Source: a virus
IMG/VR virus record: IMGVR_UViG_3300017991_000048
Span: 248,001-312,000 of that record
Length of the DNA: 64,000 nt
Direction: 5' to 3' (one strand)
The translations under genes and the position numbers were made by a program. The notes beneath the pieces were generated by a model. It saw only the letters and a program-made list of their open reading frames with translations, was not told the DNA's origin and made no database searches. Below, piece by piece: positions 1,901 to 62,225 of the stretch (the first letter of the stretch is position 1; every line of letters begins with the position of its first letter).

Positions 1901-2653
1901 TCAAAATGATGTCTTTTCCCAGTCGCGGCCCCAGTCACGTCCCGTAAACTCGCCTGTCTCTGCGCTCAACTCTACCTGTACTTCCCACTCATCACCTTCG
2001 TAAGTGGTTCCAGTCACCACTATGGACTGTTGTTTATCCCCTCTAACTCCATAATCATCGGTGCGGACATCCTCAAAATCTTCAGGCATTCCAATACTTT
2101 CTTCAACTTGTTTTGTCTCGCCTGAGAACTGATTCATCATTTCGACTCTAAGCTCTACTATGCCAGAATGAACATCAGCATCAACATCGTAAATATACCA
2201 AATGTGCCCAATATGACCGCCTCTTGGGATAAACTTGTGACGGATCTTACCGGTGGGCTTTCCAGTCTTATAAGTTTTTAGCCAACGTTGCACCGTTTCG
2301 TTGTATATGTCATTCACATCTTCTTGATCTCCGGGAATTTGTTTCCTGGCAGCGGTTCTGACGTCATCTTCCAGGTACTTGAAAACATCAATATAAGGCT
2401 GGACCTTTGAGGACATTACGACATCCCAAACCCCCATCGCAGCATACCTATCCCAAAAATCCCTCTGTTTGAGTTCTCTTTCGACCAAGTTTGCCGCTTT
2501 ACGAGGATCAAGCCCTTCAACATCATGTAATAAATCCATTGCTTGACTCATGCCCATAGGCGTGTTGTCGAAAGCGCCTGTTTTACCTAGAGCTTCTTCA
2601 AAAGCTGATCGGGGGTTGTTTATGGCGTTTTCAAAGGCTTTTCTGGGATTCAT
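1901..2653 (-). CDS. Protein with a tandem NPRKAF N-terminal tag
   Basis: The 250-residue protein opens with two consecutive copies of the recurring tag: NPRKAFENAI followed directly by NPRSAFEEALGKTG. The middle (about 35-110) is helical. The C-terminal half is beta-rich and includes GHIGHIWYIYDVDADVHSGIVELRVE and a later EGDEWEVQVELS stretch. No catalytic motif or known family is recognised. The doubled tag suggests local duplication of the 5' end of the gene. It sits among four other tagged small genes downstream of the sheath gene, and a role as an internal virion protein is inferred only from the tag. Confidence 0.75.
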   Translation of the reverse strand: MNPRKAFENAINNPRSAFEEALGKTGAFDNTPMGMSQAMDLLHDVEGLDPRKAANLVERELKQRDFWDRYAAMGVWDVVMSSKVQPYIDVFKYLEDDVRTAARKQIPGDQEDVNDIYNETVQRWLKTYKTGKPTGKIRHKFIPRGGHIGHIWYIYDVDADVHSGIVELRVEMMNQFSGETKQVEESIGMPEDFEDVRTDDYGVRGDKQQSIVVTGTTYEGDEWEVQVELSAETGEFTGRDWGRDWEKTSF

Positions 2654-12663: not shown

Positions 12664-15297
12664 TCAGAACTCGATATTTTCCCATACCGGTGTTCGGCCT
12701 CTCAACTCACGCTCATCAGGTATGTTAGGTTTCTCGGTCGGTTCAGCCCTGGCTTCCTGTTCCGGGCCACGGGGCTTGAACTGCACTGCCTCGTATTTAA
12801 CAGGATTGCCCACCATTACTTGGTATCGAATATCTTTCTCATCCAGATGCCCGATATTGAAATGCTGCTGCAACACCATGCCTCTGTTACTTGGGAATCT
12901 AACTGCCCCTATCGAATATCGCATTCCGTTAATTTTCACCAAAAAGTCGCGCTGAGACAGGATAGGCGTAGGTCCAGTCCATACCTCATACATATGCTCT
13001 AAAGTACGACCTGTGTCCTTTTGCGTGATTCTCCGCTCTGCGTCGTCCGGGGCTATCATAGCGTCGTAAGGGCCTTCATATCCCCCTAAGATTCCCGTTC
13101 CATAACAATTATGCACCACAATCCCTTGGACAACATAAGTGTGCTCCCCCTCCACCTCTAAGTTATAGACAACCCCCTCATAAGGGACTGTATGAATGTC
13201 TCTTATCTTTGCTAACCCGTCCCGTTCAAATTTCCATCTACCTTTTCTAAAGGCATGATGGAAATTTTCATCTTCCCAATTAACACAATAAGCCAGTTTG
13301 CGAGGGTTACCTTTAGGAGTCAAACTTGCACTACGTTGATGGCGGACTAAAGGCTGCTTACCTAAACGATGGCAAATTTCTGTGAGTTGAAGAGCGAGTA
13401 CTTCGGAGGTTTGGGTTACCTCACTGCCAGCTTTCCACCCATCTCCATCATATATACCTTGGAGAAGCCACTTTTGTTTTTCTGGCGGCAACCACATAAG
13501 TTCTTCTGGGATTCGTTTCTGATCACAACGACCACCAAGCCAAGCGGGGAACCACTCCGATAAATGAGAGCCGTTCACACTAACAACTGCCCTAAAACCA
13601 GGCCCCAAGGTGATAGAAGCGGTGTAACCATACTTCTCAAAGTAAACTTTAACTCTGTTCTGAAACTCTACCTCGTCAGCGTGTAAAGCAAAAGTAATAC
13701 TTCGTGCGGCAGCCGAACCCTCAGCTATATATAGGCCAACCACCCACAAAAAATCTTCATCCACTTCAAATCTGACGTCTCCTTGTCGCGCTGGCCCGAA
13801 CTTAGCTGTTTTACGACAGCTTTGAGGCACCTCAACATATTCTAAATCTTCAATAATTCTAGGGTACTGCGCGACAAGCCAGCCGTGCTCTTCTAGCTCG
13901 TTTGCTGGCACCCACTCTAAAGAATGTGCTTTCTTATGCTCAAGACGATACGCCTGCACAATTTGCTTAGCCTCTGTTTCGTTTTCAAATGTTCCAAGAC
14001 TAATTCGCTTACCCTTATACCCGGAGCCAACTCTGGCCCACCAGCGACCACTAGGTAGCCGCCGTACTCCTGGTCCCTGCCCTTCGACACCCCGAATAAT
14101 ATCACCTTTTTTCAGAAGACGCCCACACGTCTTTGGACCACAACGTGAAACATTATGATGGCCTACAAGCGCACGAAAAGGATGATTAGGGGTAGCTAAA
14201 AGAGGACTGGTCGAGACTGCTGATGTAATGGAAACTAGGTCACCTGAAAACGGGGTTTCAAAAAGGCGCGTTACTTTTTGAAAAGATCCGTCTGATGACA
14301 AAACACGATCTCCAACACTAATGTCTTTAATAAAACGATAACCTCGTTCAGTTCTTACTAAAGTTTCAGGTGTAAAGCATACATGGCAATCGTTGACAGG
14401 CTGATGGTAAAGCTCTTCCCCAATACAAACACACGGAAGCCCCACCTCTTTACGAATGAAAAGCTTTACTCTCTCGCCGCCTTGTTCCAGAATCCATCGG
14501 TTTCTTCGCACCGCCTCTCGCCAGATATAATCCAGCTTTTCAATCTCCATCGAACTCGTGGCTACAGCTTCTTCAATCGGAGTCTCGATCAAGTGCTCGC
14601 ACCGGACCTTGCTCAAATCACAATCAATGGGCACCGCCACAGTTGTTACACGGTAAAAGACCCTTTGGCCCAAATCGGTCTTTAGAAGCGACCGGTTTCT
14701 GCGATATGTAACCGTCACTACACTATCGGGACCGGGCACCAAGGACGGGTCTAATGTCTGGGACTCGACATTTGCATAAATGTAAGGGTCAATTTCAACT
14801 TCCCCGGAAAACCCGTCCACCCGTAAAGGTTTGACCGTAACATCGTCAATTCTGACCCATACATCGGACGGAAGATTGGCGACCACCGCCTGGGAACCCT
14901 CTTTGACAATGGGACAATGTAATGTCTTGAAAACCCAACGTGGCGCAGCGGCTCCAGCGGCGGACCCACATTCATCTCTCATAACAAAGCGGTCGGAGAC
15001 ATCCTCATCGATTATGAGTTCGTTGTCTGTCCGGTCCCGCCAAAACGTCGTACAAGCCAACGTGTCAGTGATCCGGTGAAAGGGGCCGAACTCTGAATCA
15101 AACGACCGGTAGATATTAACACCCAAAATCCTGTACTCACTGTTCAGAGCCAGAATTGCAGGATTGTCCCACCTGAGATCGAAAACCCCCGGTTGATAGC
15201 CGCTGGTCAGGAACAAGTTAAGGGGCGGCAATGGCCATGGAGTCTTGGTGTACTCCAGGTCCATAATATTTCGATCACGATTAGTCGCGTAAGGCAT
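12664..15297 (-). CDS. Baseplate/tail structural protein interrupted by an intein
   Basis: The 877-residue precursor has an N-extein (1-306), an intein (307-730) and a C-extein (731-877). Removing the intein leaves a mature protein of about 453 residues. The N-extein begins with a fibronectin-like beta segment (YQPGVFDLRWDNPAILALNSEYRILGVNIYRS) and continues as structural beta domains. The splice junction CHV|CYGTG rebuilds a CxxCxGxG zinc-knuckle preceded by CVC. Inteins usually sit in the most conserved motif of the host protein, so this knuckle is probably important. The start could also be the internal ATG at 15264; neither has a good Shine-Dalgarno. Confidence 0.82.
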   Translation of the reverse strand: MPYATNRDRNIMDLEYTKTPWPLPPLNLFLTSGYQPGVFDLRWDNPAILALNSEYRILGVNIYRSFDSEFGPFHRITDTLACTTFWRDRTDNELIIDEDVSDRFVMRDECGSAAGAAAPRWVFKTLHCPIVKEGSQAVVANLPSDVWVRIDDVTVKPLRVDGFSGEVEIDPYIYANVESQTLDPSLVPGPDSVVTVTYRRNRSLLKTDLGQRVFYRVTTVAVPIDCDLSKVRCEHLIETPIEEAVATSSMEIEKLDYIWREAVRRNRWILEQGGERVKLFIRKEVGLPCVCIGEELYHQPVNDCHVCFTPETLVRTERGYRFIKDISVGDRVLSSDGSFQKVTRLFETPFSGDLVSITSAVSTSPLLATPNHPFRALVGHHNVSRCGPKTCGRLLKKGDIIRGVEGQGPGVRRLPSGRWWARVGSGYKGKRISLGTFENETEAKQIVQAYRLEHKKAHSLEWVPANELEEHGWLVAQYPRIIEDLEYVEVPQSCRKTAKFGPARQGDVRFEVDEDFLWVVGLYIAEGSAAARSITFALHADEVEFQNRVKVYFEKYGYTASITLGPGFRAVVSVNGSHLSEWFPAWLGGRCDQKRIPEELMWLPPEKQKWLLQGIYDGDGWKAGSEVTQTSEVLALQLTEICHRLGKQPLVRHQRSASLTPKGNPRKLAYCVNWEDENFHHAFRKGRWKFERDGLAKIRDIHTVPYEGVVYNLEVEGEHTYVVQGIVVHNCYGTGILGGYEGPYDAMIAPDDAERRITQKDTGRTLEHMYEVWTGPTPILSQRDFLVKINGMRYSIGAVRFPSNRGMVLQQHFNIGHLDEKDIRYQVMVGNPVKYEAVQFKPRGPEQEARAEPTEKPNIPDERELRGRTPVWENIEF
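13108..14379 (-). mobile_element. LAGLIDADG-type intein (424 residues)
   Basis: The intein starts at Cys 307 of the precursor (CFTPETLVRTERG, block A). Block B is TPNHPF. The homing endonuclease carries two LAGLIDADG-type motifs, VVGLYIAEGS and LLQGIYDGDGW. Block F reads VYNLEVEGEHTYV, and block G ends VVHN, followed by Cys as the +1 extein residue. All splicing residues are present (Cys1, the block B His, terminal His-Asn, +1 Cys), so it should splice. Both endonuclease acidic residues (E and D in the motifs) remain, so it may still be active in homing. Confidence 0.93.
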
Positions 15298-19955: not shown

Positions 19956-20939
19956 TCAAACCCGTAACTGCTTATTGATAAATTCCATTTCTTCCCGTGA
20001 GAGCTTTGCCCGGTCGCCTCGCTCTATCCACAAACTATACTGAGTGCGTTCCCCGGAAGAATAATCTTGTTCATCTTCACTAATAAGCCAATCGTGTGCC
20101 GGGTTGGGGTGGCTTGACGACCACTCTATCCAACTTTTATAGCTCACATCACTATCATCTAAAAGCTCTTCCAGGGTGTCAAACTTTTCACTTTTACGGA
20201 TAAGCCAGCCTCTGTCATCGGTATCGCCAGCTTCGATAGCCTCTTCGTCCCATGTCTCATAGGTCATCTTGAAGTAATAACCCTTCCACTGACGAGCTAG
20301 CTTTGGATCTCTAAGTTCTAACTGCTCTAAATCGTCATCGTCAAGAACAATGATATCCGCTGTATTAACCGCTGTTTTTTCCAAGGCTTCTTCAAATGCT
20401 TTTCTTGGGTTTGTCATTGCTGTCTTACCTTTCTCACGCTGCTCCCATAATTCTGCGTGAGTATCATAAAGATCGGCGCTCAATTCATCAAGATCGCCGC
20501 CTCTAGCCCCATAAGAAGTAGCCATGTTTTGTACCTCTATCGCAACGTCGGCAAAATACTCAAACATATCCATTGCATCTTTTTTCTGAACGGCCCTACT
20601 GAAGTTATTAACAGCCTTTGCCAAATCACGTAACGCACGATCACCGCTCCCGCTGTGCCACTCATAATCCCACGGGGACTCCGACGCTCTGTAAAGATCA
20701 TCCACTACTTTACTGGTTATATTAGTGTTCCTCCACCCAATAGCTTTCAAAGCCATCGTACAGCTATCCGCAATGTCACTCAGAAGTCTCAGCCCTTTTT
20801 CTGTGTCTACTGGGCCACCTAGCTCTTTAACCTCTTTCTCCATCTCCCGCGCCCACCTCGCCAACTGCGACCAATTAATATCTCGGTCGCTGGACACTTT
20901 GGAAAGAGCTTTTTCAAATGCTTTACGCGGGTTCGTCAT
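19956..20939 (-). CDS. Fused protein with two NPRKAF tags
   Basis: The 327-residue protein has a tag at residue 1 (MTNPRKAFEKALSKV) and a second, complete tag with its own Met near residue 175 (KTAMTNPRKAFEEALEKTAVN). Domain 1 is helical (WARE MEKEVKEL, DLYRASESPW, YDTHAELWEQREKGK). Domain 2 is acidic and mixed (DIIVLDDDDLEQLELRDPKLARQW, then LIRKSEKFDTLEELLDDS). An AGGT-like sequence precedes the internal ATG (20415-20417). This looks like two formerly separate tagged genes now in one frame; an internal start could still give a shorter product. Confidence 0.75.
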   Translation of the reverse strand: MTNPRKAFEKALSKVSSDRDINWSQLARWAREMEKEVKELGGPVDTEKGLRLLSDIADSCTMALKAIGWRNTNITSKVVDDLYRASESPWDYEWHSGSGDRALRDLAKAVNNFSRAVQKKDAMDMFEYFADVAIEVQNMATSYGARGGDLDELSADLYDTHAELWEQREKGKTAMTNPRKAFEEALEKTAVNTADIIVLDDDDLEQLELRDPKLARQWKGYYFKMTYETWDEEAIEAGDTDDRGWLIRKSEKFDTLEELLDDSDVSYKSWIEWSSSHPNPAHDWLISEDEQDYSSGERTQYSLWIERGDRAKLSREEMEFINKQLRV

Positions 20940-20948
20940 TACAGTCTC

Positions 20949-23900
20949 CTAGTCCTCTTCTAAAACTCGCTGCTTGATATGATCCTTCGCATCTTTATCG
21001 AGATCTTCCCAATCAACGCCCTTACCCAAATGCTTACCTTCTTTGGCTTCACCCCACTGCGAGATGCTGCCACCGCCGCGACCCGCTCCAAACCCAAGTG
21101 ACATCTTGTAGCCAGGGTTAACGCTCGCGTCCCAGTCTTTACCGTCTACGATAACGGTGTACCGATCCGCCGTTTCTCCCCCATTATCATACACACGGAT
21201 CTTTGTGCCCTTCGCCAGTTCATGTGTCTTGGGCTTGCCTCTTCGGGTCTTCTTGGCCTTGGGTTTCTCTTCCTTAGGCTTTTCCTCCTTCTTATCCTCG
21301 CCTACGGCACTATACTCGCCCTTCTTTAGATCATCACCCCAGACATGAAAAGTCATATCTTCGGGCATTCTCTTTTCTTCGGGATTATTAGGATTTACAA
21401 AATGCCCTTCAAACCCTGGAGAAGGCTTGCCCTTGACTTTGGTCACACGGACGACATTAACTGTCCCACGCTCTTTGTTCTCTTGAACCAGAAGCTGTCC
21501 GTCTTTTACATCCTCCAACTTTGTAACGGGGTTGCCTTTCTTCAGCGAACCCAAACCAGAGCCTTTGCCCTTGGGTTGGTCGTCAGCTTTTCCTTTTTCC
21601 TTGGGCTTGCCCTCTTCTTTAACCTTGGAAGGCTCCTGCTTTTTTACAGTATGCCTCTTGGGGTCAGCCTTGGGGTGCTTTTGCAAGTACTTTTTCCGAG
21701 CCTCCTCTGTCGGGAATACAATAGCCGTTTTTTCGATGGCTTCTCTTACAATTTGTGTGAAGCTTGTCTCGGAAGCGCTCTTATGTAAGGCCATCCATGT
21801 ATCGTGTGAGTTTTCTGCCCTCATGCCCTCGAAGACAAGGTTATCTTTGAGAGCCTGTCTAAGATTCCTGTTTATAATTCTAAGAGCCTCATCAGGGCCT
21901 ATCTTGCCCATTTCCAAATGAATCAAAGCGTAAACAATGTCTTGCCCCGCTCCAACAATATAGTCAGCGCCACGGGTATGCCCCATCGCAAAACCCCAAC
22001 GTTCTAAAACTTCAGGGTCCATTATCCGCCTGGATCTTACATCTCGTTCAAGATCCTTCAAAAGCGTGTACGGACCAGCAGCGGCTGCTTTTCCAAGACC
22101 CAAGGCTTGCTCAAAAGCCTCTCTCGGATTGAATGCCGTCTTCTCAGGCCCACGCCAGAATGTGGTGCCTTCAATCCTGTCTTTCAGCGCAGCACAGAAA
22201 GCTCCGGTGTCAGATACCTTACCCTCCATCTTCTTCATGCACTTCTTGACATCACCGCCTACAGACTTCCAGAACTTCTTACGACTCTCGTCAGTCCAGC
22301 CCTTCGGCATTTTTTCCCACTTATCGGCAAAGACTTCCGATGCAGCAATCTTATCTACCCTTAAATCGATCATCTTCTTGGCACACGGAAGACAAATGTC
22401 AGCCACCTCTTCCGCCGTCAGGTAGAAATCCTCCTGGTCGTCTCGGACCTTGCCCAGAGCCTCTTCAAATGCTTTTCTCGGATTACCCATGGATGTCTCC
22501 TTTGCCTTCCCAAGCTCTGTCCTGGCTGTCTTGCCAAAGGATGCCCTCTTGTGTATTGCCCATTCTCGCACTCTACTTCTCTCAAGCTTGTCAAGTATTT
22601 CATCTACTTTATTATACAACCAAGGAGTTGGTCTTGTGTACCGAGCACCAACTTGCCCCTTTGCAGGTGCCAACAAAACTCCCTTTGGTCCAGCGTTCAA
22701 AGCGATATCCGCAGCTTGGAATATCCCTTGAGCAGCGCTTAATCCTAAATCATAAGGAGGGACTCGAAGATCCCTTACATGGCGGACTTCATTATTAATA
22801 ATCTTGGTTGTTATCTCTTCCGCCAACTCTGACATAAGTTTGGAAATTTTCAGTGTCTCTTCAAACGCCACTCGCGGGTTGGAAGAGGCTTGTTTTTCGC
22901 TGTATGTTGCCAGACTTACCGTATGCATCAGGTGTTCATAAGGCGCTTTCAAGTCTTTGGCTCGATGCTCGTAACCGTATCCAGCCATAGGAGCCAAAGG
23001 GTCATCCTTGGGCTTTTTGCCCTCGTCTTTTTCCGGTTTTTTGGGCTTCTCTTCCGGTTTCTTCTTCTCTGGCCCGGATAGTTGCCGTAATTGTTTCACT
23101 AAACTATCACGAAGCTTTTCATCTTCTTTATTATCCGCTGGAAGCCCCTCAAATTCTTTTGCTGCCTCTTCAAGCCGTTTATGAGGAAAAGCCTTTCCAG
23201 CCGACAAATGAGAACCAACTTCATTGATGGCAGGTGTTCCAGGTCCCTGCCACTGTTGGATTTCACCGCCTAAGTCCTTGTGCTTTTGGGAGGGTTCAAA
23301 CTTTTTGTCCGTAGGTTCCTCTTTTTTGACCGTATGTTTCTTGGGGTCGGCTTTGGGGTGCTCCTGGAGATACTTTTTCCGGGCCTCTTCCGTTGGGAAC
23401 TCCATGGCTAGTCTTACAGCCTCTGCAAACACAGAGGCTTCCTTCTGAGGCTTTAGAGCCTTGATCCTCTGTTGGAGTTCTTCAACATTACGTTTCATTC
23501 TCTTGATGTCCTTCTGAAGCTCTGCCTTTTCCTTCTTGGTAGCTTTCTCTAACCTCTCGCTGTCTTCACTGATTGCCTTTTCGATCTTCTTGATCTGGTC
23601 TTCAAGCCGAGCTACTTGGTACTCCTTTTCCCGCTTCGGACGCTTTCTAACTTCTTTCTTCTCAACAGTGTGGTGACTGGGGTCGGCTTTGGGATGCTCT
23701 CTGAGGTACTTATTCCGAGCCTTCTGGGAAGGATGGACCTTGGCCGTCAAAACTTGCTCAAACGCCTCAACAGCTAACTTTGAAATCATCCGCTTTTTAT
23801 TACGGATCACTTCCTCAAGACCCTTTACCACGGACTGGGCTCCCGATAGTGTCAGGTTTTCAACCTCTTTACCAGCCTTCAGGTCAGTGACGGCCTTACG

Positions 23901-23990
23901 CATTTCCGCAAGATTCTTCTCATCTCGCTTCAGAGCGGCTTCCCACTCAGACTTGGAAATTTCCAAAGCTACTTTTTCCCGTGTTATCAT
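20949..23990 (-). CDS. 1013-residue multi-domain chain with internal tags and HPKADP repeats
   Basis: Order of parts: helical N-terminus; HPKADP repeat 1 (about 84-112); coiled coil (120-185); HPKADP repeat 2 (about 197-224); Lys/Pro-rich linker; tag copy SNPRVAFEETL (371); helical domain; tag copy MGNPRKAFEEAL (501); a domain with MPKGWTDESRKKFWKS and GAFCAALKDRIEGTTFWRG, common in phage proteins of unknown function; tag copy FNPREAFEQAL (621); helical domain; HPKADP repeat 3 (about 758-785); Lys-rich linker; and a beta-rich end (GTKIRVYDNGGETADRYTV). KTA occurs before or between modules three times. It reads like several tagged genes fused into a possible polyprotein. The Shine-Dalgarno of one fused gene is kept inside the frame. 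Confidence 0.78.
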   Translation of the reverse strand: MITREKVALEISKSEWEAALKRDEKNLAEMRKAVTDLKAGKEVENLTLSGAQSVVKGLEEVIRNKKRMISKLAVEAFEQVLTAKVHPSQKARNKYLREHPKADPSHHTVEKKEVRKRPKREKEYQVARLEDQIKKIEKAISEDSERLEKATKKEKAELQKDIKRMKRNVEELQQRIKALKPQKEASVFAEAVRLAMEFPTEEARKKYLQEHPKADPKKHTVKKEEPTDKKFEPSQKHKDLGGEIQQWQGPGTPAINEVGSHLSAGKAFPHKRLEEAAKEFEGLPADNKEDEKLRDSLVKQLRQLSGPEKKKPEEKPKKPEKDEGKKPKDDPLAPMAGYGYEHRAKDLKAPYEHLMHTVSLATYSEKQASSNPRVAFEETLKISKLMSELAEEITTKIINNEVRHVRDLRVPPYDLGLSAAQGIFQAADIALNAGPKGVLLAPAKGQVGARYTRPTPWLYNKVDEILDKLERSRVREWAIHKRASFGKTARTELGKAKETSMGNPRKAFEEALGKVRDDQEDFYLTAEEVADICLPCAKKMIDLRVDKIAASEVFADKWEKMPKGWTDESRKKFWKSVGGDVKKCMKKMEGKVSDTGAFCAALKDRIEGTTFWRGPEKTAFNPREAFEQALGLGKAAAAGPYTLLKDLERDVRSRRIMDPEVLERWGFAMGHTRGADYIVGAGQDIVYALIHLEMGKIGPDEALRIINRNLRQALKDNLVFEGMRAENSHDTWMALHKSASETSFTQIVREAIEKTAIVFPTEEARKKYLQKHPKADPKRHTVKKQEPSKVKEEGKPKEKGKADDQPKGKGSGLGSLKKGNPVTKLEDVKDGQLLVQENKERGTVNVVRVTKVKGKPSPGFEGHFVNPNNPEEKRMPEDMTFHVWGDDLKKGEYSAVGEDKKEEKPKEEKPKAKKTRRGKPKTHELAKGTKIRVYDNGGETADRYTVIVDGKDWDASVNPGYKMSLGFGAGRGGGSISQWGEAKEGKHLGKGVDWEDLDKDAKDHIKQRVLEED
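22488..22503 (-). promoter_or_regulatory. Internal ribosome binding site and ATG inside the fused gene
   Basis: AAAGGAG (22497-22503) lies 6 nt before an in-frame ATG (22488-22490) that would begin a 513-residue product starting MGNPRKAFEEALGKV. The element is as good as those of the true genes nearby, so a shorter tagged protein may be made from the same message. Confidence 0.5.
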
Positions 23991-26267: not shown

Positions 26268-26894
26268 TCACATCCAGAATTTCTTATCCGATAGCTCCAC
26301 TCCCGGCATCCGTTGAGCTTTCGCTTTCAATACCTGTGCCTTGCCAGGACCGATTCGCCCTGACCAGCGGTAACCTATTCTTACGGTTCCAGAGTAATCT
26401 GTTCCGTTGCAGTTGAGCCTTCCGGGTCTCAAATCCGTAAAGTCTGGACCCACTACGAGAGCATTGGCAATTTTCCGGACAACCTTGACCGCATCATCTA
26501 TCCGCCGTTTCGCGTCGGCGGGGTCCATACCGGCAGACGCGATAGTTATGTTTGTCCAGAAGTAAGCGCCGTCTTTGTCCGCGTACATCACAACATCTGG
26601 AAAAGTCTCACCAAGAGTTATGGCTTGCTTTTTCAGGGTTTCTTCAAATGCTTTTCTGGGGTTAGCCGCCATGCCTTCGCTCTCCATTTTCTCAAGACGA
26701 GTATAATAATCAGACAATTCTGCAAGATGGTCTTTGGCTATCTCTTTTGCGATTGCCGGGTCGTCTGTGTGCTCCTTCTCAACCTCGATCCCCATCTCAA
26801 GTTGCTCTTTATCAAACTTGTCATCAGGGACATCAGTGTGCTTGCCCACGCCTTCTTTTTGTAACGCTTCTTCGTAAGCTCTGCGAGGGTCCAT
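26268..26894 (-). CDS. Fused protein: DUF5661-like helix module plus NPRKAF-tagged domain
   Basis: The 208-residue protein starts MDPRRAYEEALQKEG, a divergent tag. Residues about 20-70 (DKEQLEMGIEVEKEHTDDPAIAKEIAKDHLAELSDYYTRLEKME) match, from memory, the phage family DUF5661. A second tag with its own Met (MAANPRKAFEETLKKQA) follows near residue 74, with GGAG 11 nt upstream of that ATG. The C-terminal domain is alpha/beta (DVVMYADKDGAYFWTNITIASAG, PGRLNCNGTDYSGTVRIGYRW). As with the gene at 19956-20939, it looks like two tagged genes joined in frame. Confidence 0.73.
   Translation of the reverse strand: MDPRRAYEEALQKEGVGKHTDVPDDKFDKEQLEMGIEVEKEHTDDPAIAKEIAKDHLAELSDYYTRLEKMESEGMAANPRKAFEETLKKQAITLGETFPDVVMYADKDGAYFWTNITIASAGMDPADAKRRIDDAVKVVRKIANALVVGPDFTDLRPGRLNCNGTDYSGTVRIGYRWSGRIGPGKAQVLKAKAQRMPGVELSDKKFWM

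Positions 26895-38111: not shown

Positions 38112-38112
<1 letters not shown>
37525..38112 (-). CDS. Fibre/structural protein, paralog of neighbour
   Basis: The 195-residue protein shares with the next gene the N-terminal pattern YTYSI...EIxxSAIxxALDxIxxxGDExDxxF...DGL (about 60 residues). The C-terminal domain is beta-rich (TYRVAWSYEVKTSNSSSTRIETRIEVDGIEYC) and likely a jelly-roll. It directly follows the collagen-like fibre gene, and such short proteins often form fibre tips or attach to fibres. Confidence 0.65.
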
Positions 38113-45556
<7,444 letters not shown>

Positions 45557-46864: not shown

Positions 46865-48484
46865 CTATTTGAACTTATCCTTGTTCTTCTGATGTTCCTC
46901 TCTCCACTTCTTGGCATCTTCAGGACTCATATTTTTGGTAGGATCAGCAGGTTTCCCCTCCTCGAATCGAGACTCTACTTCTTTCTCAGCTTCTTTTTCG
47001 TCTGAGGCGTAGTTCCTCATACCCATGGGCAGCGATGCCATATAGACTTCCTCATCCATAACTTCACTTTCAAAACGCCGCCAAGCATCTTCGGCTTTTT
47101 TCCCCACCATAAAAGTTTTGTCTCTAGGCCAATACAGCACCAAATCGCCACGCTTGAATGGGGTTCCATCGGATGCTTGACCTGGATACCGAGCGTGTAT
47201 CCAACGCGGATCGTATGAAGCAGCTTCTTTGTCTGAAGCTCTATACTCCCGGCGACCTTCCCCTTCATCGATCAAAGCTTTGACCCGCTCCGCTTCACGG
47301 GAAGATTTCTTGACCTTATAACCTAACAACTCTAAGTCTCTGGCCAAATCTCTTATCGTGTTAGTGACCTTCCAGTAAGAACTGTGAATCTCTTTGGCTC
47401 TGTCAATGATATTGTCAGGCATCCCCGCAAGCGGACCCATATCCGCCGCGAATCCCGTCAAAGCGTCTTCCAACGATTGATCTATGGTGCTGTTCTCACC
47501 CACACAAACAAAGAAGTTTTCAGCCGCTTGGATCAAAGCGGCCTGAAGATCCTCTGTGGACACCCCTTCGCCGTGCGGACGATTTCGAATCCTAAGAGGT
47601 TTAAGATTAGCCGCTGTCTTTGTCTCTGGTTCTTCTTGAGCCGCTGTCCTGTTCTCGTTCAAATAATCAGGATTGACCAAGAAGCTCTCGTTCGTAACCT
47701 TCCCGCGTGTCAACATTTGATGCTTTTCAGCTACAATGGTTCCACGATCCTTATAAACGGCTCCCATTGTCCGTTTGGTATGCATATAATGAGGACGCGG
47801 CCACCTAGCGTTAGCCAAAGCTTCGTTGAACTCCGCCTCTGTCGCGCTCTGCAACGCTTCAAACAACGCCGTGCGAACATCCATAGCCTCTGCCAATACA
47901 TTCCGAAGTTGTGAGGCTAATGCCATCCGACTCGGACGCTCTTCATCGGTTTTCAAAAGATTCGCAGCCAGACCACGCAGAGTGTCGGCAACCTGATCCC
48001 CTGTAGCGGTCTTTGACTGCCCTTCTAACTGAGAGATCAAGGCAGCCAACTTCTCTATATCTGCCTGTCCCGTGGACTCCACCTCTGTTGCTAAACGTTC
48101 AAGTTCGGCCACAGCCTCTGGAATATTCATAGCTATCTCTCCCTTAGATTGCTTAACCCGTCGAATCCGAATGTCTTTAAGGGCGTTCTCAAGTTCCTCG
48201 ACCTTCTCAGGATTCAAGGTGTCCTTGATTTCCTCATAATCTAACTTGGCCGCACCCAAGGCTGCGGCACTGAGAGCCCTGTCCAACCCTAATAAAGTCT
48301 CTGGAACCCCGTAGATCAGATGAGCAGCGACCTCAAAAAAATGGTCTTTATGCTCAGACTTGTTGATGAGTTTAACTCCCTCATCTACATACTTCCGAAG
48401 CTGAGCGCACTTCAGCCTAGCGTCTCCCAATTCCTCAAGGAGGAAGACCGATATGTTACTGGCTTCTTTGTTATGTTCTTCCAC
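46865..48484 (-). CDS. Multi-domain protein of unknown function (539 aa)
   Basis: GTG start with GGAGAG 10 nt upstream. The first 120 residues are helical (LLEELGDARLKCAQLRKYVDEGVKLI). A module starting MNIPEAVAELERLATEVESTG follows near residue 119, then coiled coils. A beta-containing end carries SYDPRWIHARYPGQASDGTPFKRGDLVLYWPRDKTFMVG and a Lys-rich tail. KTA occurs twice (SKTATGD, TKTAANL), in linker-like stretches between modules. This composite build resembles the fused gene at 20949-23990. No catalytic residues are recognised. Confidence 0.68.
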   Translation of the reverse strand: MEEHNKEASNISVFLLEELGDARLKCAQLRKYVDEGVKLINKSEHKDHFFEVAAHLIYGVPETLLGLDRALSAAALGAAKLDYEEIKDTLNPEKVEELENALKDIRIRRVKQSKGEIAMNIPEAVAELERLATEVESTGQADIEKLAALISQLEGQSKTATGDQVADTLRGLAANLLKTDEERPSRMALASQLRNVLAEAMDVRTALFEALQSATEAEFNEALANARWPRPHYMHTKRTMGAVYKDRGTIVAEKHQMLTRGKVTNESFLVNPDYLNENRTAAQEEPETKTAANLKPLRIRNRPHGEGVSTEDLQAALIQAAENFFVCVGENSTIDQSLEDALTGFAADMGPLAGMPDNIIDRAKEIHSSYWKVTNTIRDLARDLELLGYKVKKSSREAERVKALIDEGEGRREYRASDKEAASYDPRWIHARYPGQASDGTPFKRGDLVLYWPRDKTFMVGKKAEDAWRRFESEVMDEEVYMASLPMGMRNYASDEKEAEKEVESRFEEGKPADPTKNMSPEDAKKWREEHQKNKDKFK

Positions 48485-49721: not shown

Positions 49722-50444
49722 TTAAAGGGTCCAATCGATGGGTTCATTGAGCACGGCATTTGCCCTGGAGAAAGGCTTGCTCCCGAAAAACCCCTTGGAT
49801 GCACTCATCGGGCTTGGGTGTGCCGATTCGATAACGGTGTGCTTTTCGGTATCAATGAGGGATGCCTTGTCTCTTGCATATCGGCCCCAAAGCACAAAGA
49901 CCATGGACTGATCCCGGTCACTGAGAAGCTTGATCACAGCGTCCGTAAAGGTTTCCCACCCACGGTCTTTGTGAGATCCCGGCTCATGTGCCCTGACAGT
50001 CAGAACCGAGTTGAGTAAGAAAACGCCCTGTTGTGCCCATTTGGTTAGATTCCCGTGCGTGGGGATGGGGATTCCAAGGTCATTCCGTTGGGCTGTGCTT
50101 TTCTGTTCCGCCTACAACCCTGGCACCTCCAAGCCTGCAAAATATCTACAAAGAGCTTGGGCTTGGTTTCTGCCGTGATATGGGTCTTGACCCAGAATCA
50201 GGACACGGACCTTATCGAGCGGAGTCTTGAACGCTGTAAAAACTTGACCCTGAGGCGGGTATACAGTGGTTTCTGCGCGTTCCTGCTTTACGAATTCAAG
50301 GAGAGATTTGAAATAAGGCTTGTCGAACTCAGGATCTAAAGCGGTTTTCCAGGACGGATGCACATGGGTGGTTACACCGTTATGGCAACGGTAAGGGCTT
50401 GGTGCCTTTAAACCCTGTACCCGGTAAAGAGCCTGCAATGGCAT
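49722..50444 (-). pseudogene. ung: Uracil-DNA glycosylase, disrupted by an internal 77-bp inversion
   Basis: ATG 50444 (AAGGA 8 nt upstream) begins a family 1 uracil-DNA glycosylase: VRVLILGQDPYHG with the catalytic Asp, then a stop at 50112. The next expected part (GLCFSVPPTTLAPPSLQNIYKEL) is on the opposite strand at 50079-50155. The rest (KWAQQGVFLLNSVLTV, GWETFTDAVIKLLS, and HPSPMSA with the second catalytic His) is back on the minus strand to 49722. Re-inverting the 77 bp gives one uninterrupted 240-residue protein of normal length. As given, no active enzyme can be made. It follows the gene at 50380-50922 with a 65-nt overlap. Confidence 0.9.
50079..50155 (+). other. 77-bp inverted segment inside ung
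   Basis: The segment is flanked by a 5-bp inverted repeat, CCAAG (50074-50078) and CTTGG (50156-50160). Its plus strand encodes the uracil-DNA glycosylase core that is missing from the minus strand, and the reading frame is exactly kept across both joints when it is flipped. Either a real micro-inversion or an assembly error. Confidence 0.85.
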
Positions 50445-50922
50445 CTTGCTCTTCCTTGGACCAACTCCCAGCGCCTGGACGCTTACCCGCGTACACGGTA
50501 AAGAGTGCAAACAACCCGTTCCGGTTTGCCACTACTTTGGTATTACCCGAAGCAGATAACAGACCTTTTTGGTCCATTTGGGCCTTAAGTTCACGCCAAA
50601 CTCCTCCAAGAACTCTCTCTGCCTTCCGTAAACTACCAATAGTAGTACTAAAAGCCAAGCCAGCGTTCGGATAATCACCAACGTCATCAATTAGAACCCA
50701 TCCTGTTATACCCTTCGTACCAAGCGAAGCGTAAGGACCATCTAAAGAAGCAGTTTTCCAGTGGTTATGACGATTTTCCTCATCGCTGTATCCGGTGACT
50801 ATTGCTTGTTTTTCTGTCTTGCCCTCATCCTTGTCCTCGGATTTTTCCTTCATCTTCTTTTGCTGTTCCAAGAACTCAGGGGGAACCTTCTTCTTTGCGG
50901 CTTTCCAACGATTCTGATCCAT
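50380..50922 (-). CDS. Tagged protein with two RWK-type tags and a PPEFL module
   Basis: The 180-residue protein starts MDQNRWKAAKKKVPPEFLEQQKKMKEK, and after an acidic/Lys stretch carries a second tag-like segment, NRHNHWKTASLDG (near residue 52). The C-terminal domain is alpha/beta (GITGWVLIDDVGDYPNAGLAFSTTIGSLRKAERVLGG ... VVANRNGLFALFTVYAG). AAGGAG precedes the ATG. The PPEFL module is shared, almost base for base, with the gene at 53191-53682. Function unknown. Confidence 0.72.
   Translation of the reverse strand: MDQNRWKAAKKKVPPEFLEQQKKMKEKSEDKDEGKTEKQAIVTGYSDEENRHNHWKTASLDGPYASLGTKGITGWVLIDDVGDYPNAGLAFSTTIGSLRKAERVLGGVWRELKAQMDQKGLLSASGNTKVVANRNGLFALFTVYAGKRPGAGSWSKEEQDAIAGSLPGTGFKGTKPLPLP
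50843..50899 (-). repeat. 57-bp repeat copy A (PPEFLEQQKKMKEK module)
   Basis: Matches 53591-53647 at 55 of 57 bases by hand alignment. Encodes KKVPPEFLEQQKKMKEK in both genes. Confidence 0.85.
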
Positions 50923-57833: not shown

Positions 57834-58712
57834 CTAAACACGAGTGACAACAATACGGGTCAATCCGCGAGGATTGAAGGCACCGATACCCAGGTTCTCA
57901 AAACAACTGAAACCAATTGTCCGAGCCTTTGGATCGTCAGCCGACAGAACAGTGATCTCGGTACGAACCGGGATACGACCGAACTGCTCAGGCTCACAGC
58001 AAACATACGCGAAGCCTGACGGAACCAGCCTGGATGTGATGATCTGAGCACCCCAAAGAACAGCCTGTAGGCCGGTCTTGAGCAGGGTAGCCTGACTCTC
58101 GATATCCAGAATGTCACGTCCGAACTTACGGATGTCAGCGTAATCCGTTGCATTCATGTAGATCCGCGCAACCCGAAGGTCATGCCTCTCTATTTCTGCA
58201 AAGGCGTCAGCCAGTACTGCCGGTGAAATCGGAGCTACCACCGGTACATCGGGATTGGTCTGCCCAGGCAGCGTGTCGAAACCTGAAACAGCAATGCTGT
58301 CCAGAATCGCGAATACACGCTCATCCTCAGCCGCCTGAATCTGAGCCTTGGCCAAATCCTGGGCACGTTCGATCAGATCGAAACGACGCTCCTTGATCTG
58401 GGTCAGGGGGATTTCAGGGTTCGAGGCAATCTCAAACAAGGGGAAGATCACGCGACGTGGCTTCTGAATGGCAAGAATATTCTCACCCTCTTCGCCCACG
58501 ACAAATGCGGTCACGTCCGGGTCCTTGTCGTAGATAGGCAGAGCACCATCGGGAAGCTGCTCGACCAGGAAGGTCTTACGACCGACTGCCGAGTAGTCAC
58601 GACGAAGACGGAGCGGCTGAATCATGGAAGCGGCGAGCTTCGCACGACCGGCTGCGGTCTTGATGTACTCAGAAATAACCTGCTGCTTGACTTGATTTGA
58701 TACTTGTCCCAT
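57834..58712 (-). CDS. Major capsid protein (HK97 fold)
   Basis: The 292-residue protein has the layout of short HK97-type capsid proteins: an N-terminal region (MGQVSNQVKQQVISEYIKTAAGRAKLAAS), an extended loop (FLVEQLPDGALPIYDKDPDVTAFVVGEEG), a spine helix (RFDLIERAQDLAKAQIQAAEDERVFAILDS), an A-domain (LADAFAEIERHDLRVARIYMNATDYADIRKFG) and the terminal GIGAFNPRGLTRIVVTRV strand. KTA at residues 18-20 precedes an Ala-rich stretch and is a possible protease site. A strong GGAGGAG lies before the ATG, which is 8 nt from the decoration-type gene. It is followed by a strong terminator. Confidence 0.9.
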   Translation of the reverse strand: MGQVSNQVKQQVISEYIKTAAGRAKLAASMIQPLRLRRDYSAVGRKTFLVEQLPDGALPIYDKDPDVTAFVVGEEGENILAIQKPRRVIFPLFEIASNPEIPLTQIKERRFDLIERAQDLAKAQIQAAEDERVFAILDSIAVSGFDTLPGQTNPDVPVVAPISPAVLADAFAEIERHDLRVARIYMNATDYADIRKFGRDILDIESQATLLKTGLQAVLWGAQIITSRLVPSGFAYVCCEPEQFGRIPVRTEITVLSADDPKARTIGFSCFENLGIGAFNPRGLTRIVVTRV

Positions 58713-59466: not shown

Positions 59467-60660
59467 CTACTTGATGCCGAAAACGTCGCGGACGTCAGGA
59501 GCCGACTTCCAAAGACTGGACAGTTGATCAATGCCGTCCTGACCAGCCGATGAAGAAGCGCCACCCAACTTGGACACGCCCTCAGAAGGACGGGTTCCAA
59601 CAGTCCGAGTCGAAGCTGTGCGGGTCGAAGCCTGCTTTTGCTGCTTCTGTTGCTGTTGGCCCTTCTCCTGATCCTGGCCTTCCTTCTCTTCGTCCTTGTC
59701 CTGCTGATCCTCAGCAAACAACTGACGCAGAACTGCATCCTCAGGACCAAGGTCGTTATTGGAGATGTCCATCTGAGGCGGCTCCATCTGGATATCCGTC
59801 TCAGCGGTCTGGCAACGGCCAAGCACGTCATCAAGATCCTCATCCATGACCACCTGCTCATCCATCACGTCCATAACCTGCTGACCCTGCTGTTGCTGCA
59901 ACGCCTGATCAATCATCTCCTGGACTTGCTGACCAACCTGCTGGATCTGCTCATCCTGAATCTGCTGTTGGGCCTGCTGTTGCTGGTCCTGTTGCTCCTG
60001 ATCCTGTTGGACCTGTTGCTGAACCTGATCCTGCTGAACCTGCTGTTGCTGCTGCTGTTGCTGGTCCTGCTGAGCCTGCTGGATCATCTCCTGAACCTGC
60101 TGTTGGGCAGCGCCATAGTTGCCGGTCTGAATCTGCTGAACTACCTGCTCAGCCATCGCCGTCATATCCACAGCCTGCTTTTCCTGGCCCTCATCCTTGT
60201 CCTCATCAGCATCTTCATCCTCACCGGCAAGACGCTTATGAGTGTCAATCAACTCCTGATCCGGAAGATGCATCAGAGCGACAGCCTGATCTTCGATCAT
60301 GTCCTCTGTCACAGATGCATGTTTGCCCTGATCAAGCAGCCTCTTGGCAACATCGATACAAAGATCCGCCTTCTTGAGCAGAATCTCTTTCGATGCTGTC
60401 TTTTCAGGATGGTTGAAAGTGTCACCCCTCATGTCAGGCATCCCGATCTCATTACGCCGGGTTTCTCCGCCTGAGTACTCAGACTCCCATGTGTTAGGTG
60501 AATGCACATCTTCAGCAAATGCCGAAGGGTCACCTATAACATAGGCGTCCGCAGGGGGTTGCGGATGGTCTTGGTTCATAGTGTAAGGATCTGCCACCTT
60601 CTTTAGAGCAGCAGCCTTTTCCATAACCTCTTCTCGATTCCAGGTAGAACGCTCACGCAT
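59467..60660 (-). CDS. Head scaffold protein, Gln-rich
   Basis: Start at the second ATG (60660), which has AAAGGA 7 nt upstream; the first ATG sits almost on the Shine-Dalgarno. About 397 residues: an N-terminal region (REEVMEKAAALKKVADPYTM), a segment DTHKRLAGEDEDADEDKDEGQEKQAVD, a long Gln-rich coiled coil (about 150-275), an acidic middle and a disordered tail (QKQASTRTASTRTVG). Acidic, helical, low-complexity proteins between protease and capsid genes are scaffolds or prohead cores. KTA occurs once (PEKTASKE). Confidence 0.8.
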   Translation of the reverse strand: MRERSTWNREEVMEKAAALKKVADPYTMNQDHPQPPADAYVIGDPSAFAEDVHSPNTWESEYSGGETRRNEIGMPDMRGDTFNHPEKTASKEILLKKADLCIDVAKRLLDQGKHASVTEDMIEDQAVALMHLPDQELIDTHKRLAGEDEDADEDKDEGQEKQAVDMTAMAEQVVQQIQTGNYGAAQQQVQEMIQQAQQDQQQQQQQQVQQDQVQQQVQQDQEQQDQQQQAQQQIQDEQIQQVGQQVQEMIDQALQQQQGQQVMDVMDEQVVMDEDLDDVLGRCQTAETDIQMEPPQMDISNNDLGPEDAVLRQLFAEDQQDKDEEKEGQDQEKGQQQQKQQKQASTRTASTRTVGTRPSEGVSKLGGASSSAGQDGIDQLSSLWKSAPDVRDVFGIK

Positions 60661-60710
60661 TGGCATATCCTTTGTGGGTTATTGTCCTTGTGGTTATATA
60701 GAAGGATTTT

Positions 60711-62216
60711 TTACGACCGTCCCAAGCTAAATAATCGGCCTTTTTCTAACAAACTGGCAGTTTCACTCCCTGTTAGCTTCCGACCAAGAACTTGACGACA
60801 AGCCGCCAAATATGACTCTACATCTTCATATGGGCCTGTTCCTCCTACATCAAGAACAGTCCTATAAACTCTTGTTTCACCAGCCATAAGTGCTTTCTTA
60901 TTCATTAAATCAAGCATTCGGGATACGGCCAAAATGTTCCGACCTGTAAATCCTGCCTTTTTAACTAATGGCCAACCACCACGCTTGTGTAAGATCAAGC
61001 CGTGAAAAACTTTCCTAGCATCTGCTTTTCCAATAAAAGAAACTACTAATTTAGCAATCCGCTGCCACTCAGGGTGCTTCATGGCGGATCGAATTAAAGT
61101 CTCATTTTGCTGATTAGGGTCTATAGCCCGGATGCTATCTACTTCTTTCTGACCGATTTCTTTTCTAATGTTTTCAATGGCTTGGTTACGCAGAGCATCT
61201 GTTAGATCAGTGATAGCTTTCTGAACCGGGTTCTCTTCTTCAGGTTCTGCTGGAGCCGTTTCTTCGCCTTCATCCTCAGTTTCAAACTGTTGTTCAGGCT
61301 CCTGTCCCTGTCCCTGGCTTTGCTCTTGCTGGCCCCATCCCTGGAAAGCCGCTCTGGACATCATGTTAGGATCAGCCACTGGAGCCGGTTGGCCCAAAGC
61401 TACTCGCATCTTACCTTCAAGCCCTTGAAGCTCTTCTGCCGTAAGAATATTTCTCAGAACAGCGCCCTTGAAAGCTGGATTGGCAACCCAAGATGCCTCG
61501 ATAAACTTTACGGAGTCAGGATCGGTATAATGGCCGCATAACTCCGCAATAATGCGTTCAACGCCAAGGTCATCCCTGAACTTGCTTCCTTTAAAGAACC
61601 GGACGCACTGACAGAGTTGTGCTTCATCCTGTGCTACATTTCCACACTTTGTACACGTTGTGGTAGCTGTAGAGCATCCCATGGATAGGGTGCCGAGCTT
61701 CCCGGTCTTGATAGCCCTAATCAGGGGCGCATGTTTAAGATCATTCGCAATCAGAATGTCAATGTATATGGATTCCCCGACATCCCTGGCAGCGGCGTCG
61801 ATAATCCGACCCTTAGAAAGCTCCGGAATCTGAACATGCTCAACGTAAGATTGCGCTCCGACAAAGGTCTTGAAACTTCCCAACAGGAGCCTTCGCTCGA
61901 AAGCATCGTTATTATTGTTAACGAACTGAGCGGTCTTGGGCGTAATGTAATAATCGCTATACTTACGATCAACCTCGAAACCCTCTACAAAATGCCGACC
62001 CATGGGAGCAGAAGCTTCGTCCACGTCCACGGAAGCCACAATCGTTGCGTGGCTGAGCATATATTTGGACGGGTCATACTCCTGAAGGATGATCCGGGCG
62101 GTCTTCTTCTGAAAATCCGGGGCAGGACTCAAGGCCCCACGACGCACAGCATCCCATTCCGCGAATTCAATTCCCGGTTTTTGTAAGGTTGCTTTTGCGT
62201 ATTTAAGAAATGCCAT
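60711..62216 (-). CDS. Prohead (capsid maturation) protease
   Basis: The 501-residue protein has the protease domain in residues about 25-280: HVQIPELSKGRIID (candidate catalytic His near 130) and GKLGTLSMGCSTATTTC (candidate nucleophile Ser near 178) with a Cys cluster (CTKCGN ... CQC) and HYTDPDSVKFIEASWVANPAFKGAVLRNIL. This layout is typical of head maturation proteases of large phages. An acidic/Gln-rich linker (QEQSQGQGQEPEQQFE) leads to a helical C-terminal domain of unknown role. KTA occurs near residues 38 and 94. ATG 62216 is preferred over a TTG before it; the RBS is weak. Confidence 0.83.
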   Translation of the reverse strand: MAFLKYAKATLQKPGIEFAEWDAVRRGALSPAPDFQKKTARIILQEYDPSKYMLSHATIVASVDVDEASAPMGRHFVEGFEVDRKYSDYYITPKTAQFVNNNNDAFERRLLLGSFKTFVGAQSYVEHVQIPELSKGRIIDAAARDVGESIYIDILIANDLKHAPLIRAIKTGKLGTLSMGCSTATTTCTKCGNVAQDEAQLCQCVRFFKGSKFRDDLGVERIIAELCGHYTDPDSVKFIEASWVANPAFKGAVLRNILTAEELQGLEGKMRVALGQPAPVADPNMMSRAAFQGWGQQEQSQGQGQEPEQQFETEDEGEETAPAEPEEENPVQKAITDLTDALRNQAIENIRKEIGQKEVDSIRAIDPNQQNETLIRSAMKHPEWQRIAKLVVSFIGKADARKVFHGLILHKRGGWPLVKKAGFTGRNILAVSRMLDLMNKKALMAGETRVYRTVLDVGGTGPYEDVESYLAACRQVLGRKLTGSETASLLEKGRLFSLGRS

Positions 62217-62225
62217 CAATCAGTC

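Follow-up and report, generated by a model that had tools for sequence, protein, structure and literature searches.

The locus and the structure of P0001

The window, 64,000 nucleotides of phage DNA, covers bases 248001-312000 of a virus record totalling 398,071 bases (phage genome G000). A frame of 1013 residues, P0001, was found on the minus strand at positions 20949-23990, where the plus strand is full of stop codons. A sequence-only reading of the window had described this frame without its strand, and had listed three internal NPRKAF-type tags, three HPKADP repeats and an internal tag at residue 501 with ATG and AAAGGAG. The frame is real, the tags were located at residues 371, 503 and 621 and the repeats at residues 99, 211 and 772, and both the ATG and AAAGGAG are present. 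The features of the locus are listed below in window coordinates.

20949-23990, minus strand: P0001, modular multi-tag protein, 1013 aa, ATG start
23739-23990, minus strand: module M1 (residues 1-84); has its own 103-aa gene in G003 and is joined to another protein in G010
23661-23738, minus strand: HPKADP element 1 (residues 85-110; motif at 99)
23322-23399, minus strand: HPKADP element 2 (residues 198-223; motif at 211)
22962-22979, minus strand: internal YGYEHR (residues 338-343), class ii YxYDRR-type tag
22839-22880, minus strand: internal NPRVAF tag 1 (residues 371-384), directly after EKQASS (KQAS at 366)
22497-22503, minus strand: AAAGGAG, resembling a ribosome-binding site, upstream of the internal ATG
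22449-22490, minus strand: internal MGNPRKAF tag 2 with ATG (residues 501-514; NPRKAF at 503)
22134-22490, minus strand: module M6 (residues 501-619), tag, CLPCA segment and MPKGW domain
22134-22142, minus strand: KTA border (residues 617-619; EKTA before FNPREAF), just before tag 3
22089-22130, minus strand: internal NPREAF tag 3 (residues 621-634)
21723-22133, minus strand: module M7 (residues 620-756), C-terminal end IEKTA
21639-21716, minus strand: HPKADP element 3 (residues 759-784; motif at 772), just after EKTA
20952-21293, minus strand: module M9 (residues 900-1013)

No Pfam domain was found in P0001 at E<=0.1, and no cargo domain was recognized. Part of M9 is similar to the N-terminus of Bertelyvirus CcrBL1 gp019, and no homologs of M7 were found in the collection searched. 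The structure of M6, predicted from three sequences, reached a pLDDT of 50. The homolog in G001, the closest relative, has YSYERR in place of YGYEHR. P0001 has four K[TS]A sites, where shuffling gives an expectation of 1.1 (p = 0.02). Two of these sites coincide with borders, at residues 617-619 and at 754-756 (EKTA before IVFPTEEARKKYLQKHPKADP), and the other two are not directly at a border. KEAS (183-186) lies 11 residues upstream of HPKADP element 2, and border 2 (KETSM) is without KxA.

AAAGGAG-ACATCC stands before the ATG of residue 501 (22490-22488). Both G000 and G001 retain AAGGAGnCnTCC-ATG although neighbouring codons differ; 19 of 38 fourfold sites of M6 differ between the two genomes. 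Judged from the sequence, MGNPRKAF at residue 501 is presumably the former start of a module-6 gene, and it might still serve as an internal start. The methionine is also kept at two other internal tags of G000, MTNPRKAF in a 327-aa protein and MAANPRKAF in a 208-aa protein, and is lost at P0001 tags 371 and 621.

Tags in the genome and in the clade

Nine other small proteins in G000 also begin with the NPRKAFEEAL-type sequence. The codons of this sequence are non-random, with K encoded by AAA in 16/17 cases (background 0.37) and F by TTT in 19/22 (background 0.44). For these two reasons the tag is not a chance occurrence. The tag DNA AGA AAA GCA TTT GAA was observed to be conserved beyond the protein in the window and in G001, which may reflect start-proximal codon bias or recombination through the tags. 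Further multiply tagged proteins are encoded in the window:

19956-20939, minus strand: 327-aa protein adjoining P0001, two NPRKAF tags (the second GKTA-MTNPRKAF)
26268-26894, minus strand: 208-aa protein, tag, DUF5661, internal MAANPRKAF tag and domain
1901-2653, minus strand: protein with tandem NPRKAF/NPRSAF double tag

A search gave no relatives of the 327-aa protein. Other small proteins of G000 begin with YSYDRR, D..RWKTA or RVVxRY..K.A, and G003 and LR745208 use the tag LRxxLIRLAxxxPELRxxLLPLLKxA instead. Five tag classes unrelated in sequence swap on homologous domains. The GIFEAPPAM proteins share one domain and carry YTYDRR..RTA, RVVNRYTKQA or RVVYRHMKQA, and the MPKGW domain of M6 carries YSYDRT, RVAHRY, KRIAFRY, RVVSDF, NPRKAF or IRLAH-type tags across viruses. 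The usual position is N-terminal, and tags also occur internally, doubled, or at the C-terminus (FKTAERVVERYLESI-stop and FKRTARIVKRYLRSL-stop, preceded by FKTA/FKRTA). Tagged genes are spread over the genome and not confined to the head genes; from their sequences, the tags are a genome-wide device.

The HPKADP, NPRKAF and RVxxRY tag peptides had no match in cultured phages by tblastn, and the only match of the IRLAH tag peptide among them was LR745208. No description of such tags was found in the literature searched. Phage G (L017) has an N-terminal tag style of its own, MKRLIKKAS / MKRLVKA, in gp13, gp20, gp38 and gp53; gp53 also has an HGTS motif like that of ADP-ribosyltransferases. A second mobile element, FEEGKPADPTKNMSPEDAKKWREEHQKNKDKFK, was seen at 46865-48484 (minus strand) and in the G001 protein at 293736-295373, where three copies lie between domains.

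KxA junctions between tags and domains

In G000 and G001 together, [KR][TS]A was found within 10 residues upstream of 8/24 internal tags; the background rate over positions of tagged proteins is 1.8% (p 5e-9). The list of 24 holds some likely false positives, and the strict count is therefore conservative. A looser junction pattern was present at 12/24 (against 4%, p 3e-11), the looser patterns having been picked after examples had been seen. In 16 of 35 viral sequences [KR]xA was found within 8 residues before the MPKGW domain, against 2.7%; the p-value of 2e-16 is overstated because the MPKGW sequences are related and not independent.

Over whole genomes, K[TS]A[AS] exceeded shuffled expectation in G000 (22 vs 9.4), G001 (22 vs 9.4) and Tunturi_5 (28 vs 7.5), weakly so in G003 (16 vs 11.9), and was not enriched in phage G (9 vs 8.8). 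In large Tunturi_5 proteins that have ART-PolyVal, NUDIX and acetyltransferase domains, the motif stands directly ahead of the ART-like starts (KSASAEKWYHGTSA, KKASTTTYGPVYHGT). KTA at module borders, as proposed by the earlier reading, is supported statistically over the whole tag system by the counts at internal tags and before the MPKGW domain, and tag exchange has statistical support too.

Fused and unfused relatives

A gene with one tag and one module, corresponding to M6 (residues 501-619), was found at the syntenic locus of six relatives. In five (G018, G026, G024, G011 and G015) it lies between the same flanking genes, and in G023 it follows the same upstream neighbour. The tag is YSYDRT in G018 and G026 and of RVxxRY type in G024, G011 and G015. 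In the syntenic G001 the ortholog is 636 aa long, and only M1 (56%) and M6 (72%) are common to it and P0001, compared to identities of 61-85% for the nearest conserved flanking genes. In G003, M1 has a 103-aa gene to itself, next to that of a 324-aa M6 protein, the only G003 frame with more than one IRLAxxxPELRxxLLPLLKxA tag; it holds three copies of this tag of its own genome. In G010, M1 is situated within the C-terminal half of another protein.

Two independent pairs of fused and unfused genes were seen at other loci. The counterpart of the 208-aa protein in G001 has 148 aa and holds the second unit only, and a 545-aa three-repeat protein of G001 corresponds to two overlapping separate genes in G000 (152022-152516 and 152488-153303). 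Module arrangement differs between all distinct genomes examined, so the objection that relatives share one ancient gene of the same arrangement fails. These comparisons strongly support a fusion of tagged genes, with P0001 as the derived form, and agree well with the earlier suggestion that once separate tagged genes were joined in a chain, for which a comparison with unfused relatives had been proposed.

Capsid protein and protease

Two head genes were assigned near the end of the window:

57834-58712, minus strand: major capsid protein, N-terminus QQVISEYIKTAAGR
60711-62219, minus strand: candidate prohead (head maturation) protease

The capsid protein shares 84% identity with its counterpart in LR745208 (485 kb), and 48% and 40% with those of the jumbo phages Tunturi_5 and Bacillus phage G, and has relatives at 529 IMG/VR loci. 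The candidate protease, located near the capsid gene, matches the PHROG head maturation protease (E 2.5e-9) and has homologs in Tunturi_5, LR745208 and phage G. P0001 was considered as a scaffold and set aside; the gene at 59467-60666, between protease and capsid, is the likelier scaffold from gene order. The KTA of the capsid N-terminus was dropped as evidence of cutting. It need not be a cut site, because the phage G capsid chain as deposited (6wkk) begins at Met1. Derivation of class iv tags as copies of the capsid N-arm (QVISEYIKTAAG compared to QIVSRYLKTAG) was likewise not adopted, the position-matrix result being suggestive only: the capsid N-terminus ranks about 33rd among 22,500 N-terminal 11-mers.

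The capsid protein is 84-99% identical among phages (LR745208, G003) with far more diverged neighbour genes, which suggests strong constraint on this gene or its exchange between phages. An 877-aa protein at 12664-15297 (minus strand) has an intein-like insert at about residues 306-730 (Hint/LAGLIDADG matches) that is absent from the 452-aa G001 homolog. Two stretches of the G003 prohead protease gene (1371 aa) resemble this insert. The 2267-aa collagen-like protein at 38112-44915 (minus strand) has a GxT repeat region highly rearranged relative to G001 and is probably a fibre.

Proposed function of the tags and alternatives

At the level of sequence comparison, modular fusion, interchangeability of tags, turnover of modules and enrichment of KxA at junctions are established. 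The explanation that we consider moderately probable is that P0001 is a fused multi-module cargo precursor, whose tags target the prohead and whose KxA sites are likely cut by the head maturation protease. The short tags would act like the T4 capsid targeting sequence (CTS) and bring numerous individual small proteins to one shared destination, most likely the inside of the prohead. The head maturation protease that the phage itself encodes would most likely cut K/R-x-A between tag and cargo. Loss of stop codons in adjacent tagged genes, or recombination between them, could have produced P0001, which would leave the tags and their KxA junctions inside a single reading frame; the modules of P0001 would then enter together and be set free by cutting. 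That P0001 is a virion protein cut by the prohead protease is suggested by analogy, by the co-occurrence of K[TS]A[AS] with the protease clade and by the type of cargo. Packaging into the capsid and cleavage are plausible; capsid targeting, cleavage, the protease responsible and delivery to the host are inferred. Several observations speak against this explanation: the spread of tagged genes beyond the head genes, the absence of a recognized cargo domain in P0001, the phage G capsid chain beginning at Met1, the two K[TS]A sites away from borders and border 2 without KxA, the weak K[TS]A[AS] excess in G003, and the preference of known T4 and giant-phage head proteases for Glu.

It is unlikely, in our judgement, that P0001 is instead an uncut polyvalent protein, delivered whole as one chain, with tags as docking sites for assembly partners and KxA as a flexible linker. 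The N4 virion RNAP and the conjugative ArdC/TraC1 are delivered unprocessed (PMC5512222), several tags are without a clean KxA, and Lys/Glu-rich linkers are common in P0001. A linker alone, however, does not require what was found here, namely KxA separating tag and domain on whichever side of the domain the tag lies and in any tag class.

The tagged cargo bears on where the tags lead. It includes a uracil-DNA glycosylase (G001), a polyA-polymerase/CCA-type enzyme, Zeta_toxin, topoisomerase I with LPD1, and HGT-motif ART-like and metallopeptidase-like proteins. Three examples lie outside the window (record coordinates of G000): a 955-aa protein at 142355-145222 with a HELSH motif, LPD1, an internal tag and the topoisomerase I core; a protein at 139984-141699 with the order tag, Zeta_toxin, KKTA, tag and domain; and one at 153320-154735 with HPKADP, a HEIGH motif and a tag. 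The region 49722-50510 (minus strand) holds what remains of a uracil-DNA glycosylase gene, now distributed over more than one frame; the tagged copy in G001 (MHPSWKTA...) is intact.

The tags could send proteins elsewhere in the infected cell, to the replication compartment, the membrane or the nucleoid, in which case fusions would only co-localize activities. Tagged genes far from the head genes and DNA/RNA enzymes among them would fit such a role, but the Zeta_toxin, LPD1/topoisomerase, ART-like and metallopeptidase-like cargo resembles packaged polyvalent proteins, and the MPKGW domain is fused to the portal protein in HATV-3. This destination is regarded as improbable. We give very little credence to the tags being recombination relics, in which conserved tag DNA drives gene shuffling and internal copies are functionless: conserved codons, double tags and decay of internal tags (the lost methionines) agree with it, but homologous domains keep tags of different classes, G000, G001 and G003 each retain internal tags specific to their class, and start-proximal codon bias also explains the DNA pattern.

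More tentatively, the prohead-targeting explanation may extend to an open-ended 'tag - KxA - cargo' grammar, with repeated concatenation into polyproteins cut by the prohead protease, in huge phages of the capsid clade. Unrelated, exchangeable tags at N-terminal, internal or C-terminal positions would load many enzymes into the head. If true, the tags would be new targeting peptides, would allow the proteins packaged by hundreds of uncultured huge phages to be listed by sequence alone, and would explain the assembly and dismantling of polyvalent-type proteins. Which proteins ride in huge-phage heads would become directly testable in the cultured relative Tunturi_5.

Comparison with known systems

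The ejection proteins of phiKZ and SPN3US have removable N-terminal regions, with several cuts per propeptide (PMC10052503, in which the word 'polyprotein' is absent). The likeness would be that of giant-phage head proteins with removable N-terminal regions; unlike P0001, their propeptides are mostly long, cut after Glu and without tags between domains.

Polyvalent proteins are phage proteins of several domains for which packaging and injection are predicted, as the available text of Iyer et al. 2017 (PMC5512222) has it. The clade encodes clear members, LPD1 with topoisomerase in G000 and ART-PolyVal proteins in Tunturi_5. P0001 was not classed as one because it has no named polyvalent domain: PolyVal/LPD/ART/MPTase-type domains are absent (Pfam, E<=0.1), and such a domain was found in the G000 protein with LPD1 described above. 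By comparison P0001 has several distinct modules, without assigned activity. In that text, processing is the work of an embedded metallopeptidase, and neither KxA borders nor packaging tags in repeated copies are mentioned.

In T4, 10 N-terminal residues are enough for head targeting and the prohead protease removes the tag (PMC9026906); the targeting signal of P1 DarB lies within 30 residues of the N-terminus (PMC9024508). The T4 CTS of the internal proteins and Alt and the DarB signal are short N-terminal peptides on otherwise unrelated proteins, as are the tags here, and they work on foreign proteins (PMC9026906, PMC9024508). In contrast to the T4 CTS, the present tags, known from sequence alone, fall into five or more unrelated classes within a single phage clade, replace one another on homologous domains, and are also internal and C-terminal. 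The junction is KxA and not the Glu motif of T4; T4 and known giant-phage head proteases cut after Glu, not Ala. By analogy, the P0001 system is filed as a variant that would work like T4-type targeting tags and polyvalent proteins.
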